Assembly: GCA_902776305.1 (NCBI GenBank)
Contig: CACYPS010000023.1
Coordinates: 1-41,842 of the forward strand
From: an uncultured Lachnospiraceae bacterium
GTDB taxonomy: Bacteria; Bacillota; Clostridia; Lachnospirales; Lachnospiraceae
Direction: 5' to 3'
DNA length: 41,842 bases
The position numbers and the translations under genes were made by a program. The notes under the pieces were generated by a model. That model ran no database searches. It was not told where the DNA came from and saw only the letters and a list, made by a program, of their open reading frames with translations. Positions 2,613-5,367 of this stretch are shown here, in pieces. Positions within the stretch are counted from its first letter, which is position 1, and every line of letters starts with the position of its first letter.

Positions 2613-3036
2613 TCAGTCACCCCCTCGGGCCTGCAAAAAATTCTATCGTGAGCAGACCGCTTTTTTTATTAACAATGATAACAAACGGATATTCGATATG
2701 CAAGATAAATTTTCGATAAGAAACGAGACGTCGCTCATGAACGACATCCTGTGAAGTTGTGCAGGCAATTTTCGGTTTTCATGATCATTTTTTAGACATT
2801 AAGAATGCGCTTTATATTACGGGTAGAATGACAAACCAGACCGGTCAGGGTATTATGTTTACAGAAAACAATGAAAGGAAAGGTCCGAGAAGATGAAGTG
2901 CATCCATGTTTTATCAAGTTCATACGTTCTTTATCTGTCCCTTCTGCCCTATGGCAGCAAGGTCAGTTTGACGTGTGGGAAAACTCCGGTAAAGCAAGGG
3001 CATCCATGATCTTCATGTTAAGAACCATAGATCATA
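2613..3036. other. Leader region between the LexA-like gene and the tRNA array
   Basis: TTCGATA occurs twice as direct repeats (2693-2699 and about 2713), 20 bases apart and close to the LexA-like start; they are candidate operator half-sites. A plus-strand promoter candidate has TAGACA at 2793 and TATTAC at 2815 (16-base spacer). Short plus-strand frames after 2870 lack convincing coding character. Confidence 0.3.
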
Positions 3037-3038
3037 AG

Positions 3039-3078
3039 CCGTCTGTCTGGGGAGATTTCCACGCAGGCGGTTTTTATT
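3039..3078 (+). terminator. Rho-independent terminator just before the tRNA array
   Basis: CCGTCTG pairs with CAGGCGG, with an inner TGGGGA/TTTCCA extension, followed by TTTTTATTTT. It would end a plus-strand transcript coming from the 2790-2880 promoter region. The first tRNA begins 2-3 bases after the T-run. Confidence 0.6.
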
Positions 3079-3080
3079 TT

Positions 3081-3191
3081 GGGCAGAGAGCCTTACCGCA
3101 AGGGCACCTGACGCGACGGCACAAAGTGCCTAGTCCACCGGATAAATCAGGTACATCAGAAACACCGTTGGTGCAACTCCAACCCTGCCCA
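3081..3191 (+). tRNA. Interrupted tRNA-like gene, 28 extra bases in the anticodon loop
   Basis: Acceptor GGGCAGA pairs with CCTGCCC at six of seven positions. The D stem is GCC/GGC. The anticodon stem is CCTGA (3107-3111)/TCAGG (3147-3151), and the T-arm is GTTGG-TGCAACT-CCAAC. The anticodon 'loop' is 35 bases instead of 7. Bases 3113-3136 are the reverse complement, at 23 of 24 positions, of a hairpin in the T-loop of the gene at 3649. The stem sequences resemble Met(CAT)-type tRNAs, but no anticodon can be read without knowing whether and where the insert is removed. The T-loop has G in place of the usual second T. No CCA is encoded. Confidence 0.6.
3113..3136 (-). repeat. 24-nt hairpin insert in a tRNA anticodon loop
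   Basis: Contains GGCAC/GTGCC arms around AAA. It matches 3756-3779 in inverted orientation with one mismatch. See the gene at 3081. Confidence 0.7.
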
Positions 3192-3197
3192 CTTTCT

Positions 3198-3271
3198 GCT
3201 CCCGTATCCCAATCGGAAGAGGGTGCTGGTTTAAACCCGGTCCAGTGTGAGTTCGAATCTCACCGGGAGTA
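3198..3271 (+). tRNA. Class I tRNA with anticodon TAA
   Basis: A regular 74-base cloverleaf: acceptor GCTCCCG/CGGGAGT, D stem CCC/GGG, anticodon arm GCTGG-TTTAAAC-CCGGT, 5-base variable loop, T-arm GTGAG-TTCGAAT-CTCAC. The anticodon at positions 34-36 is TAA, which would read the Leu codon UUA. Bacterial tRNA-Leu has a long variable arm and this molecule does not, so its amino-acid identity is doubtful. Confidence 0.75.
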
Positions 3272-3276
3272 TTGAT

Positions 3277-3362
3277 GCCTCTGTAGCAGAACGGAATATG
3301 CGCCGGGCTAAGGACCCGGGCCGGACTAAGATCCAGTGTGAGTTCGAATCTCACCAGGGGCA
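3277..3362 (+). tRNA. tRNA-Leu(AAG)
   Basis: An 86-base class II cloverleaf: acceptor GCCTCTG/CAGGGGC, anticodon arm CCGGG-CTAAGGA-CCCGG with anticodon AAG, variable arm with GGA/TCC, T-arm GTGAG-TTCGAAT-CTCAC. The T-arm and the bases before it are identical to those of the preceding tRNA, which points to recent duplication or recombination between array members. A34 in a Leu tRNA is uncommon in bacteria. Confidence 0.8.
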
Positions 3363-3367
3363 CTTGC

Positions 3368-3486
3368 GCAGGAGTGACGGAACTGGAATACGTATCTGCT
3401 TCAAATACAGAGTTGAGCGGCTTGTCCGCGATGCTTCTTGACCACAGGTCAAGAAGATACCCGTGGTTCAACTCCCTTCTCCTGTA
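3368..3486 (+). tRNA. Interrupted tRNA-Leu(CAA)-like gene with an extra hairpin before the T-arm
   Basis: Acceptor GCAGGAG/CTCCTGT pairs over all seven positions (one G-T). The D arm is ACG/CGT. The anticodon arm TCTGC-TTCAAAT-ACAGA reads CAA. A normal-looking variable arm GCGG/CCGC (3417-3429) is followed by an additional perfect 10-bp hairpin, CTTCTTGACC/GGTCAAGAAG (3434-3456). The T-stem that should precede the loop TTCAACT is poorly paired. At 119 bases the gene is about 30 longer than a normal tRNA-Leu. Confidence 0.6.
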
Positions 3487-3490
3487 CTTT

Positions 3491-3646
3491 ATACCCAGGT
3501 GCGAAATTGGTAAACGGACATGACTCAGACTCATGTGCCCTTACGGGCTTACGGGTTCGGTCTCCGCTCCGCTTCGGTCGGCGCTCTTCGTGCCCTGTGG
3601 GTAGAACGGATGTCCACTGGACATCCAGCGCCCCGTCATGGGTATT
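3491..3646 (+). tRNA. Interrupted tRNA-Leu(CAG), 76-nt T-loop
   Basis: Acceptor ATACCCA/TGGGTAT pairs perfectly. The anticodon arm ACATGA-CTCAGAC-TCATGT reads CAG, and the variable arm is GCCC/GGGC. T-stem ACGGG (3551-3555) pairs with CCCGT (3632-3636). Between the T-stem strands are 76 bases instead of 7, starting with the expected TTCG. The insert shares its sequence with those in the genes at 4871 and 5167 but carries 18 extra bases. Two unpaired bases separate the T-stem from the acceptor. Confidence 0.72.
3556..3631 (+). repeat. T-loop insert, copy A (76 nt)
   Basis: It begins TTCGGTCT, contains CTCCGCTTCGGTCGGCGCT, then 18 bases absent from copies B and C, then the hairpin GGATGTCC-ACT-GGACATCC (3608-3626), and ends CAGCGC. 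The GCGCT/AGCGC segments can close a long stem around the hairpin. Confidence 0.8.
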
Positions 3647-3648
3647 AC

Positions 3649-3796
3649 GCTGTGATGCCACAACTGGTAATGGGCCGGTAGCGACCAAGCGCAGCGCGTA
3701 GTCCCCGAAGGGGAAAAACCGGTGATCCGTGCAGGCGGACTGGGGGGTTCCTAAAGGACTAGGCACTTCGTGCCGTCGCAAGTCCCTCTCACAGCG
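3649..3796 (+). tRNA. Doubly interrupted class II tRNA-like gene (probably Ser or Leu type)
   Basis: Acceptor GCTGTGA/TCACAGC pairs perfectly. Anticodon stem CCGGT (3675-3679)/ACCGG (3718-3722) encloses 38 bases instead of 7. The variable arm is TCCG/CGGA. T-stem GGGGG (3743-3747)/CCCTC (3784-3788) encloses 36 bases. Removing 29 bases (3751-3779) from this second loop leaves exactly TTCAAGT, a canonical T-loop. The anticodon cannot be read with confidence; the stem sequence is like Ser tRNAs. Confidence 0.62.
3751..3779 (+). repeat. 29-nt insert in a T-loop, hairpin shared with the tRNA at 3081
   Basis: Bases 3756-3779 contain the GGCAC-TTC-GTGCC hairpin and are the inverted form of 3113-3136. 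The insert lies between T-loop bases TTC and AAGT. Confidence 0.72.
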
Positions 3797-3800
3797 CTTT

Positions 3801-3886
3801 GCAGACATGGCTGAATTGGCAAAAGCACTTCCCCGCTAAGGAAGGTCCGGGTGACCGGAATGCAGGACCCGGACCTGCTGTCTGCG
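3801..3886 (+). tRNA. tRNA-Ser(GCT)-like with aberrant T-loop
   Basis: Acceptor GCAGACA/TGTCTGC pairs perfectly. The D arm is GCT/AGC, the anticodon arm CTTCC-CCGCTAA-GGAAG reads GCT, the variable arm is TCCGG/CCGGA, and the T-stem is GCAGG/CCTGC. The T-loop is ACCCGGA and lacks the invariant TTC. AGGTCCGGGT (3843-3852) is perfectly complementary to ACCCGGACCT (3867-3876), so an alternative fold would destroy the T-arm. U33 is also replaced by C. Confidence 0.68.
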
Positions 3887-3917
3887 TTCAGATGCCGCAT
3901 GCAGGCATTATCTGAAC
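3886..3917. repeat. Palindrome abutting the 3' end of the tRNA-Ser-like gene
   Basis: GTTCAGAT (3886-3893) and ATCTGAAC (3910-3917) with inner GCC/GGC form a hairpin that begins at the discriminator base of the preceding tRNA. No T-run follows, so it is not an obvious terminator. Confidence 0.5.
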
Positions 3918-3922
3918 ATTTA

Positions 3923-3956
3923 TACCGGGAGTATAATGACACGGTAATTTTTTTAT
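3923..3956 (+). terminator. Weak terminator-like hairpin after the first tRNA block
   Basis: TACCG and CGGTA flank a 14-base loop and are followed by ATTTTTTT. The stem is short, so efficiency is uncertain, but the position after the last tRNA of the block fits. Confidence 0.4.
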
Positions 3957-4212
3957 GCTATAGTAAGGATAGATAAAAAATTAGGATCTAAGGTCCGGAA
4001 AGGTAAGGCAATGCTGCAGATACATATGAACAGCTTAATGAATACATATCGCCCGTATGATCTTCAGGGAATTATTCTGCCCTCAGCCGATAAAGCTGAA
4101 AGGCTTAATAAGACATGCCTAAAAATGGCCGGATCAAGTGGATATCTGGAACCAGGTGCATCTAAACACATGCTGGGATAATCAGATAAATTACAGTTAC
4201 TTTGCTGAGACT
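3957..4212 (+). other. Non-coding interval, possible small RNA
   Basis: It lies between a -10-like TATAGT near 3959 and the strong terminator at 4213. It has no long frame with a ribosome site. Local pairings such as AGGG/CCCT around 4068-4085 are visible. I recognise no known RNA family here. A transcript of about 240 bases is possible but unproven. Confidence 0.25.
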
Positions 4213-4243
4213 GCCGCTTGTCCGAAAAGACAGGCGGTTTTTT
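4213..4243 (+). terminator. Strong rho-independent terminator
   Basis: GCCGCTTGTC and GACAGGCGG form a stable stem with a CGAAAA loop, followed directly by TTTTTTT. Confidence 0.78.
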
Positions 4244-4377
4244 ATGTCATAGGAAACTTCGTTCCCTATGACATAAAAACGCTTCGCGAGGATGCGACTG
4301 ATGCGCAGTTGAAGATGCAAGCTGACGCTTGCGCGCATCAGCGCGCAAAGAGTCGCAAAGCGACTCTTTGTTATGTC
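4243..4377. repeat. Composite hairpin element, E4
   Basis: Three successive palindromes: TATGTCATAGG/CCTATGACATA; CTGATGCGC/GCGCATCAG with an inner GCAAG/CTTGC; and AAGAGTCGC/GCGACTCTT. The apical GGAAACTTCGTTCCC is of the same kind as in the element at 40122. It is placed between the preceding terminator and the short frame at 4396. Confidence 0.55.
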
Positions 4378-4395
4378 GTATTTTGGAGGATTATT

Positions 4396-4515
4396 ATGAA
4401 TAGGTATTTACGAGATTACAGTATTATGAACCTGCTCCCGTCGGGGGAGATGAGAGAAAAGAAGATAAAAACAGAAGACACTGATCATGAAATAAATCAG
4501 AATAAGGCAGCATAG
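4396..4515 (+). CDS. Possible 39-residue peptide upstream of the XRE regulator
   Basis: ATG at 4396 has a good TTTTGGAGG site seven bases upstream. The product MNRYLRDYSIMNLLPSGEMR and on is charged and lysine-rich towards the end, with no transmembrane segment. It ends 44 bases before the XRE gene. A GCCGGCAC/GTGCCGGC hairpin (4514-4534) covers its last codons and the gap. It may be a leader peptide or a truncated gene. Confidence 0.4.
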   Translation: MNRYLRDYSIMNLLPSGEMREKKIKTEDTDHEINQNKAA

Positions 4516-4559
4516 CCGGCACTCCCCGTGCCGGCACTGCCGGAACAGGGAGGTGCGAT

Positions 4560-4808
4560 ATGATGGAGATTCCGTCTATAAACACTGTCGCAACCGGACA
4601 AAACATAAACAGGTTGAGAATAGCAGCCGGTCTTTCTGTAAGGGACATGCAGATTGTGTTTGGTTTTTCTACCCCGCAGGCGATCTACAAATGGTTCAGG
4701 GGTACGGCAATGCCTACCATTGACAACCTGGTCATATTGGCAGCTATGCTGGATGTGACTTTGGACGAGATCGTAGTGGTAGATACCATCACGATAAGAG
4801 TTGGCTGA
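4560..4808 (+). CDS. Small XRE-family helix-turn-helix regulator
   Basis: 82 residues with GGGAGGTGCGAT before the ATG. Residues 12-70 form a Cro/C1-type helix-turn-helix: GQNINRLRIAAGLSVRDMQI, FGFSTPQAIYKWFRGTAMPT as recognition region, then DNLVILAAMLDVTLDEIVVVD. Very similar single-domain regulators are common in Lachnospiraceae. It sits inside the tRNA array, between two tRNA blocks on the same strand, and is followed by a GC-rich palindrome (4837-4859). Targets are unknown; autoregulation or control of neighbouring mobile DNA is plausible. Confidence 0.85.
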   Translation: MMEIPSINTVATGQNINRLRIAAGLSVRDMQIVFGFSTPQAIYKWFRGTAMPTIDNLVILAAMLDVTLDEIVVVDTITIRVG

Positions 4809-4836
4809 AGAAAATGTTTGCATATTAAAAAGAAGG

Positions 4837-4859
4837 CGGGCCGGAATACGCCGGCCCGC
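4837..4859. repeat. GC-rich palindrome between the regulator and the second tRNA block
   Basis: CGGGCCGG and CCGGCCCG flank a short loop. No T-run follows. It may act as a processing or termination hairpin. Confidence 0.45.
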
Positions 4860-4870
4860 ACAGGATACAT

Positions 4871-4993
4871 AGCTCCATAGTATAACGGTTAGTACACCGG
4901 ACTGTCTATCCGGAGGCGCGGGTTCGGTCTACACTCCGTTTCGGTCGGCGCTGAACGGATGTCCACTGGACATCCAGCGCCCCGCTGGGGTTG
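4871..4993 (+). tRNA. Interrupted tRNA-Asp(GTC), 58-nt T-loop
   Basis: Acceptor AGCTCCA/TGGGGTT forms seven pairs with two G-T. The D arm is standard (GTATAACGGTTAGTAC). Anticodon arm CCGGA-CTGTCTA-TCCGG reads GTC. T-stem GCGGG (4918-4922) pairs with CCCGC (4981-4985). The loop is 58 bases (4923-4980) instead of 7. Apart from that insert the gene is a textbook tRNA-Asp, so the interruption is clear and not an artefact of a poor tRNA call. Discriminator G. Confidence 0.8.
4923..4980 (+). repeat. T-loop insert, copy B (58 nt)
   Basis: Shares TTCGGTCT, CTCCG, CGGTCGGCGCT, the GGATGTCC-ACT-GGACATCC hairpin (4957-4975) and final CAGCGC with copies A and C. Its length is identical to copy C. Confidence 0.82.
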
Positions 4994-4998
4994 CTTCT

Positions 4999-5069
4999 TG
5001 AGAACGTGGTGTAATGGCAGCACGCTGCGCCTGGGACGCAGAGGAGCGGTTCGAGTCCGACGTTTTCAA
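4999..5069 (+). tRNA. tRNA-Pro(TGG)-like
   Basis: Acceptor TGAGAAC/GTTTTCA pairs throughout (one G-T). The D arm is GTG/CAC, anticodon arm CTGCG-CCTGGGA-CGCAG reads TGG, and the T-arm has TTCGAGT but only three good stem pairs. C is found at position 33 where U is nearly universal. Uninterrupted. Confidence 0.7.
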
Positions 5070-5073
5070 TCAT

Positions 5074-5146
5074 CGAAGTGTAGTTCAGTCAGAAGAACAT
5101 CCGTCTGATACGCGGAAGGTCAGTGGTGCAATTCCACTCACTTCGA
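5074..5146 (+). tRNA. tRNA-Ile(GAT)
   Basis: A 73-base cloverleaf: acceptor CGAAGTG/CACTTCG, D stem GTTC/GAAC, anticodon arm TCCGT-CTGATAC-GCGGA reading GAT, T-arm AGTGG-TGCAATT-CCACT. The T-loop has TGC instead of TTC, as in the first tRNA of the array. C1-G72 is unlike the usual G1-C72. Uninterrupted. Confidence 0.78.
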
Positions 5147-5166
5147 TTTGCCGGTATAAAAACATA

Positions 5167-5289
5167 GCGGGTGAGTGGAACGGAAGACCATTTCAGCCTC
5201 ATAAACTGAAGATAGCAGGTTCGGTCTTCGCTCCGCTCCGGTCGGCGCTAAACGAACGTCCACTGGACGTTCAGCGCCCTGCACCCGCA
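5167..5289 (+). tRNA. Interrupted tRNA-Met(CAT)-like, 58-nt T-loop
   Basis: Acceptor GCGGGT/ACCCGC gives six pairs. The D stem is TGG/CCA, anticodon arm TCAGC-CTCATAA-ACTGA reads CAT (closing pair mismatched), and T-stem GCAGG (5215-5219) pairs with CCTGC (5278-5282). The T-loop is 58 bases (5220-5277), exactly the length seen in the Asp gene. Met versus lysidine-Ile identity cannot be decided. Confidence 0.72.
5220..5277 (+). repeat. T-loop insert, copy C (58 nt)
   Basis: Same plan as copy B. The hairpin reads GAACGTCC-ACT-GGACGTTC (5254-5272): two positions differ from copies A and B on both arms, and pairing is kept. Confidence 0.82.
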
Positions 5290-5293
5290 ACTA

Positions 5294-5367
5294 TTGCAGA
5301 ATGGCTCGAAAGGGAGGCAGCACCCTCATAAGGTGTAATATGCCGGTTCGAATCCGGCTTCTGCAAC
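5294..5367 (+). tRNA. tRNA-Met/Ile2(CAT), uninterrupted
   Basis: Acceptor TTGCAGA/TCTGCAA is perfect. The anticodon arm GCACC-CTCATAA-GGTGT reads CAT, and the T-arm GCCGG-TTCGAAT-CCGGC is canonical. There is no insert and no encoded CCA. It lacks the three G-C pairs of an initiator anticodon stem. Confidence 0.82.

Follow-up and report, generated by a model that had tools for sequence, protein, structure and literature searches.

The window analyzed here, the whole 41,842-nucleotide (nt) stretch considered, is contig C23 (GenBank CACYPS010000023.1) of the 4.08-Mb draft genome of an uncultured Lachnospiraceae bacterium (assembly GCA_902776305.1; completeness, 97%). It carries an array of tRNA genes, all on the plus strand, three of which hold a copy of a short palindromic element inside the T-loop. 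In the tRNA-Leu(CAG) gene (positions 3493 to 3644), the T-stem ACGGG/CCCGT (3551-3555/3632-3636) encloses a T-loop of 76 nt (3556-3631), a net gain of 69 nt, and element copy 1 (3560 to 3631) belongs to a long form that has 18 additional nt. The tRNA-Asp(GTC) gene (4871 to 4992) has the T-stem GCGGG/CCCGC (4918-4922/4981-4985), a 58-nt T-loop (4923-4980), and copy 2 (4927 to 4980). A Met(CAT)-like gene (about 5167 to 5288) has the T-stem GCAGG/CCTGC (5215-5219/5278-5282), a 58-nt T-loop (5220-5277), and copy 3 (5224 to 5277). A single short-form copy expands the 7-nt T-loop to 58 nt, a net gain of 51 nt. The three loop lengths, and the homology of inserts that start and end in register, had been pointed out in a sequence-only reading of this DNA, and both hold when checked against sequence and coordinates. 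The same reading described the stems as complete. The genes do have the parts of a tRNA, but only 6 of the 7 acceptor pairs form in Leu (with 5/5 in both the anticodon stem and the T-stem), the Asp acceptor has 7 pairs of which two are G-U, and in the Met-like gene acceptor and T-stem compete for one base, giving 6 plus 5 or 7 plus 4 pairs. Neither ARAGORN nor Rfam at its gathering score called any of the three genes, although the Asp gene missed the cutoff narrowly (28.1 versus 29 bits).

The element has a core of about 52 nt, made up of a conserved unpaired arm (TCTCCGCTCCGCTCCGGTC type) and then a 14-bp hairpin of 8 plus 6 pairs with a bulge. Searches used two models: R1, built from four copies, and R2, restricted to the core without T-loop letters and trained mostly on T-loop copies. 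R1 matches the window at 3556-3632 (expect value [E], 9e-18), 4923-4981 (E, 1.6e-19), and 5220-5278 (E, 5.9e-20). Because it returns these three inserts and a single further copy, on contig C13, at an E below 0.1 in this genome (six other matches listed have E values of 0.11 to 0.80), the window inserts are not explained by chance. Matches to R1 occur in 16 of 42 genomes of the genus, this one included, and number 60 in genome G020. Across the family, R2 matches 45 of 100 sampled genomes. Six of 98 genomes sampled across the class match; three belong to the same family (again including this genome) and three lie outside it with weak scores. Scanning genome_contigs with a T-loop pattern found 89 stretches, and for 80 of these the labels are mostly Lachnospiraceae bacterium or genera such as Butyrivibrio, Eubacterium, Blautia, Agathobacter, Acetatifactor, or Oribacterium, with a few Clostridiales, Clostridium sp., or Candidatus Darwinimomas. 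An extension comparable to that of the long Leu copy is present in dispersed copies of genome G035.

The hairpin is maintained by covariation. Across 62 aligned copies, whose selection by model or T-loop pattern favors good hairpins, 98.7% of the hairpin cells are paired, 10 of the 14 pairs have changed on both sides, and none of 500 shuffles reached as high a value; the consensus hairpin foot reads CGGTC-GGCGC...GCGCC. G-U pairs account for 7 of about 856 paired cells, a scarcity which suggests that the palindrome matters at the level of DNA.

Members of the family are dispersed, and they are associated with tRNA 3' ends. When the best core-model match of each of 30 genomes (window included) was considered, a tRNA was present within the stretch in 13 of 30, compared with 2 of 26 in the control set, where one of the two itself has a copy of the element; some bias is left in this comparison because the control stretches are shorter on average and the core model is T-loop trained. 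The T-loop pattern, which by its design favors a T-arm context, gave 102 matches, and for 76 of them a tRNA lies no more than 1.5 kb away. Nine of the 102 lie in full-length tRNAs of other genomes (7/7 acceptor and 5/5 T-stem pairs, the former being a selection rule, with a short list of loop lengths tried), always at the same insertion point: Leu(TAG), Thr(CGT), Leu(CAG), Lys(CTT) three times, Cys(GCA), and Arg(CCT) twice, the anticodons coming from the fold analysis or being read by eye. The Arg(CCT) pair (L136 and L164) is one gene in related genomes. An interrupted Leu(TAG) gene is found in Butyrivibrio sp. WCD3002. Of the nine, six have a 58-nt T-loop and one a 59-nt T-loop; in the remaining two, the loop holds two elements and measures 111 nt. 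A rerun that tried every loop length between 40 and 130 brought up two more candidates, both resembling chance pairings. In other genomes, the inserts are therefore found in well-formed tRNA genes and not solely in decayed ones, so that the outcome which the sequence-only reading had named as refuting it, inserts only in obviously decayed tRNAs, is not what is seen.

Much more common is an arrangement that leaves the tRNA whole. In 49 of the 102 matches (class B), the tRNA upstream is intact and its 3' end is present a second time beside the element, and 44 fit neither class by the rules used. As read by eye, the usual order is an intact tRNA, a terminator, an antisense T-arm-like stretch, a sense T-arm half with the element, and a tRNA 3' end. 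The upstream tRNA ends 47 to 325 nt before the T-loop. Such a duplicated end was not seen for the three window genes. When loci were instead chosen by their tRNAs in four element-bearing genomes, 6 of 113 tRNAs had a 3'-end copy; the element is present in five of these cases, and the remaining one is an Asp gene that is repeated. A wider expression found the element between tRNA 3'-end copies in 5 of 6, 48 of 51, and 5 of 7 cases, and in 1 of 1 in the control set, while still missing a few elements visible by eye (L311, L329, and L140). The exact 3' 12-mer of a nearby tRNA is repeated in the element flanks at 6 of the 30 core-model loci versus 4 of 1,100 random positions. This strict test is coarser than inspection of the flanks, by which further loci appear to derive from tRNAs.

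The element also occurs in intergenic DNA and at sites unrelated to tRNA. The C13 copy lies in frame and reversed inside a gene with 4Fe-4S binding domains (ferredoxin-like), and the counterpart gene in genome G021, from a second species, has a diverged copy in which the inner stem has undergone compensatory change and is fully paired while one outer pair is lost (L046 and L037). An open frame spanning the element with at least 60 codons on each side was found at 4 of 45 loci tested, the ferredoxin-like genes of this genome and G021 among them.

Occupied and empty sites can be compared directly. On contig C85 of the same genome, a homologous array includes an Asp gene with a normal T-loop, GCGGG-TTCGATT-CCCGC, where the window gene reads GCGGG-TTCGGTC, then 51 nt, and then CCCGC. 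Genome G019 has the same Leu(CAG) gene with a shorter, diverged element, and the adjoining Gly(CCC) gene, broken in the window, is intact there. A related array in G021 shows ordinary loops in all 11 of the tRNAs called there. Eubacterium ramulus ATCC 29099 has an intact tRNA-Lys(CTT) with the copied-end form downstream of it, in the order terminator, antisense half of a T-arm carrying one element, and sense half carrying a second element together with the 3' end. In E. ramulus strain 21, what seems to be the same second element (two differences, by eye) sits inside Lys(CTT), and the intact 3' end is gone.

The interrupted genes are redundant in this genome, which retains three intact genes for Asp(GTC), one of them the C85 gene, one for Leu(CAG), and three for Met(CAT), where CAT genes could be of the initiator, elongator, or Ile type. 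Intact isoacceptors are likewise present in the genomes (G438 and G439) with interrupted Cys(GCA) and Leu(TAG) genes. On the stretches fetched from E. ramulus strain 21, ARAGORN called no Lys gene, but these stretches also lack several further types of tRNA, the draft is gapped, and a few tRNA matches lie outside what was fetched. The predicted anticodon stem reaches a probability of at least 0.3 in none of nine folded interrupted genes (range, 0.00 to 0.29; window Met-like gene, 0.29) compared with 16 of 20 intact tRNAs, a cutoff set after the values were known, in folds from RNAfold that omit modifications and tertiary contacts and that 4 of the 20 intact tRNAs also fail. T-stem values are not considered, since in several intact genes the T-stem was assigned to the wrong place. 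The last alternative offered by the sequence-only reading, that these tRNAs are inactive, best fits the intact isoacceptors and the weak predicted anticodon stems, and the interrupted array tRNAs are most likely inactive, being tolerated because they are redundant.

We conclude that the three inserts are probably copies of a widespread Lachnospiraceae family of short mobile palindromic DNA elements strongly linked to the T-arms of tRNA genes and of 3'-end copies, and that the redundant tRNAs they interrupt are probably nonfunctional. The insert looks like a mobile repeat and not like a new kind of tRNA intron. The sequences directly show that the copies form one dispersed family, that the hairpin covaries, that occupied and empty sites exist, that the genes are redundant, and that the element keeps company with tRNA 3' ends; movement as DNA, the enzyme behind it, and loss of tRNA function are inferences. 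Such an element would move as a DNA hairpin, probably single stranded or at the replication fork, presumably with the help of a mobilizing enzyme, and may prefer T-arm sequence, the T-arm being a small hairpin itself. The window copies would have landed in redundant tRNAs of decaying arrays, probably silencing them; it is the combination of decaying arrays and redundant genes that leads us to regard the interrupted tRNAs as probably nonfunctional.

Several observations, besides the limits of the locus and fold comparisons given above, weigh against this interpretation. In the nine interrupted genes of other genomes, all 7 acceptor pairs are retained (by the selection rule), as are 4 or 5 of 5 anticodon pairs in the six scored, and the Leu(CAG) interruption is common to two species; old pseudogenes should show more decay than this. 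The 58-nt loop in six of the nine could reflect constraint. No mobilizing enzyme was found; a Y1 transposase (PF01797) is matched in four of six genomes and in neither G037 nor G020, the latter with its 60 element matches. This candidate was rejected, as neither copy number nor linkage supports it: among 20 Y1 loci, the element appears only in L307, a partial match with the element more than 800 nt away, and in L294, where the element match is weak.

A bolder form of the same idea is that this is a noncoding DNA hairpin family of the Lachnospiraceae that lands specifically in tRNA T-arms, its common form of about 100 to 150 nt bringing a copied 3' end so that the tRNA stays whole, with no gene of its own and with the window copies as a solo form. 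We entertain this only tentatively and consider it somewhat less probable than not. Integrative elements use tRNA 3' ends as attachment sites, and the class B loci resemble them in having a duplicated 3' end and an intact upstream tRNA. In contrast to such elements, the two class B end copies are only about 105 to 390 nt apart; the printed segments between them consist of a terminator, T-arm-like stretches, and the element, and contain no integrase or other gene, for which there is no room.

A rather doubtful proposal concerns the path by which full-length copies arise and is compatible with the explanation we favor. The element would first be present in a downstream 3'-end copy, and a deletion between the T-arm repeats would then move it into the tRNA. 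The two E. ramulus strains, one with the copied-end form and the other with the element inside the Lys tRNA, are what this route would produce. However, they represent a single locus at which the direction of change is unrooted, and no downstream copy was noticed beside the window genes.

It is unlikely that the cell produces and uses these tRNAs with the insert kept as an extra arm on the T-loop side. The stems are kept with small faults in all 12 interrupted genes (three in the window and nine elsewhere), the insert hairpin is stable and adjoins the T-stem, and the loop is 58 nt in Asp, Met, and six of the nine others, with the 40 to 130 rerun adding only its two chance-like candidates. Against this, the predicted anticodon stems of the nine folded genes are weak, all three window tRNAs are redundant, and the same element is present at sites unrelated to tRNA. 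The contact between the D-loop and the T-loop is an established tRNA feature, and it would be lost.

Less probable still, and by our estimate very improbable, is removal or cutting of the insert in RNA, either by splicing or by an RNase III-like cut that yields a two-piece tRNA, as for rRNA intervening sequences. The hairpin is strong and its position constant, and archaeal tRNA introns are described at positions 53/54, 56/57, and 59/60 (PMC4090602). However, the tRNA splicing endonuclease domain tRNA_int_endo (PF01974) has no match in this 97% complete genome, the control being positive in four archaea. Intron and ribozyme candidates fared no better, since Rfam searches at gathering and lax settings gave tRNAs and two subthreshold matches taken as chance. 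The hairpin has just 8 plus 6 pairs with a bulge, and its few G-U pairs do not suggest selection on RNA. Splicing, as raised by the sequence-only reading, thus finds no backing; of its proposed new class of tRNA intervening sequence, the recurrent T-loop interruption stands, with nine further full-length tRNAs, but not the specificity for tRNA, given the intergenic, 3'-end, and protein gene copies. A phage or plasmid origin was rejected, as no phage or plasmid record matches the insert at an E of up to 1, and viral_contigs gave no match to the T-loop pattern and three to a looser core, none of the three having a called tRNA. Of eight open reading frames (ORFs) at the left end of the window, six have no PHROG match and two have regulator- or UmuD-type matches.

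Among known systems, the best reading is of an element that works like the REP or Rickettsia palindromic elements (RPE), that is, a REP/RPE-like mobile palindrome. REP elements, as presented in PMC3733652, are dispersed DNA palindromes tagged with GTAG and CGTC, some of them inside genes. The element resembles them as a short palindrome dispersed in many copies, some inside genes, but lacks GTAG or CGTC at the hairpin foot (the letters CGTC occur inside the stem), has a conserved unpaired arm and a T-arm association, and has no linked RAYT (Y1 transposase) at the loci considered. In the main text of that paper, neither Firmicutes nor any word beginning Clostrid- or Lachnospir- occurs. RPE, as described there, lie in frame in protein genes, which is matched here by one ferredoxin-like gene in two genomes; they differ from the element in that it occurs in tRNA T-loops, a comparison by description and not by sequence. 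Archaeal tRNA introns at noncanonical positions, the T-loop region included (PMC4090602), are alike in position only, as this genome has no splicing endonuclease match and the same sequence is present outside tRNAs. We found no description of T-loop palindromes in bacterial tRNAs in searches of the open-access literature.

The rest of the window's array includes two additional interrupted tRNAs, absent from the sequence-only reading. In one, at 3649 to 3795, other palindromes disrupt the anticodon region and the T-loop; the G019 ortholog of this gene is called as an intact tRNA-Gly(ccc). These two palindromes are unrelated to the main family, and part of one recurs inverted at 3113-3136. The other, Leu(CAA)-like and located at about 3368-3486, has palindromes in its variable arm, is shared with G019, and gives a weak tRNA match (19.7 bits). 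Its variable-arm palindrome is of the CTTCTTGACC/GGTCAAGAAG type, likewise in G019, and a similar palindrome is found in a repeated stretch adjoining the E. ramulus Lys locus. Uninterrupted genes in the ARAGORN/array calls are tRNA-Leu(TAA) (3197 to 3272), tRNA-Leu(AAG) (3277 to 3363), tRNA-Pro(TGG) (4998 to 5071), tRNA-Ile(GAT) (5073 to 5147), and tRNA-Met(CAT) (5295 to 5367). A tRNA-Ser(GCT)-like gene at 3801 to 3885, with the odd T-loop ACCCGGA, has no ARAGORN call, and its G019 ortholog is called tRNA-Ser(gct).

Upstream of the Leu/Ser array is a 38-codon ORF (2893-3009; MKCIHVLSSSYVLYLSLL...) with many codons for Leu, Ser, and Tyr; behind it, at about 3039-3080, lies a terminator-like hairpin. 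Similar ORFs are present in G021 and G034 (L175 and L174); in the G021 array, only Leu, Ser, and Tyr are represented among the 11 tRNAs called, whereas the G034 array has His, Arg, and Lys as well. The ORF with its hairpin resembles an attenuator with a leader peptide, serving class II tRNAs. A second short ORF (4026-4181; MNSLMNTYRPYDLQGIILPS...) and a terminator (about 4214-4245) precede the Asp/Pro/Ile/Met array, and its C85 counterpart (MYTNRIKNTYRLFDLQGTIMP...; L343, 525-686, minus strand) is followed by the same terminator. The second terminator and the Asp gene of the window are separated by about 630 nt that contain palindromes and a helix-turn-helix gene. A very large array is found in G438 (the L134 genome), on contig C105, with 39 ARAGORN-called tRNAs on fetched stretches within 20 kb; the interrupted Cys(GCA) of this genome is located on the same contig.

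The element accounts for a class of tRNA genes missed here by ARAGORN and Rfam, and such inserts should not be read as introns. Its recurrence in well-formed tRNAs makes the tolerance of bacterial tRNAs for a 51-nt T-loop extension directly testable. If the element truly targets tRNA T-arms, it would be a tRNA-site-specific mobile DNA that is noncoding and very small.

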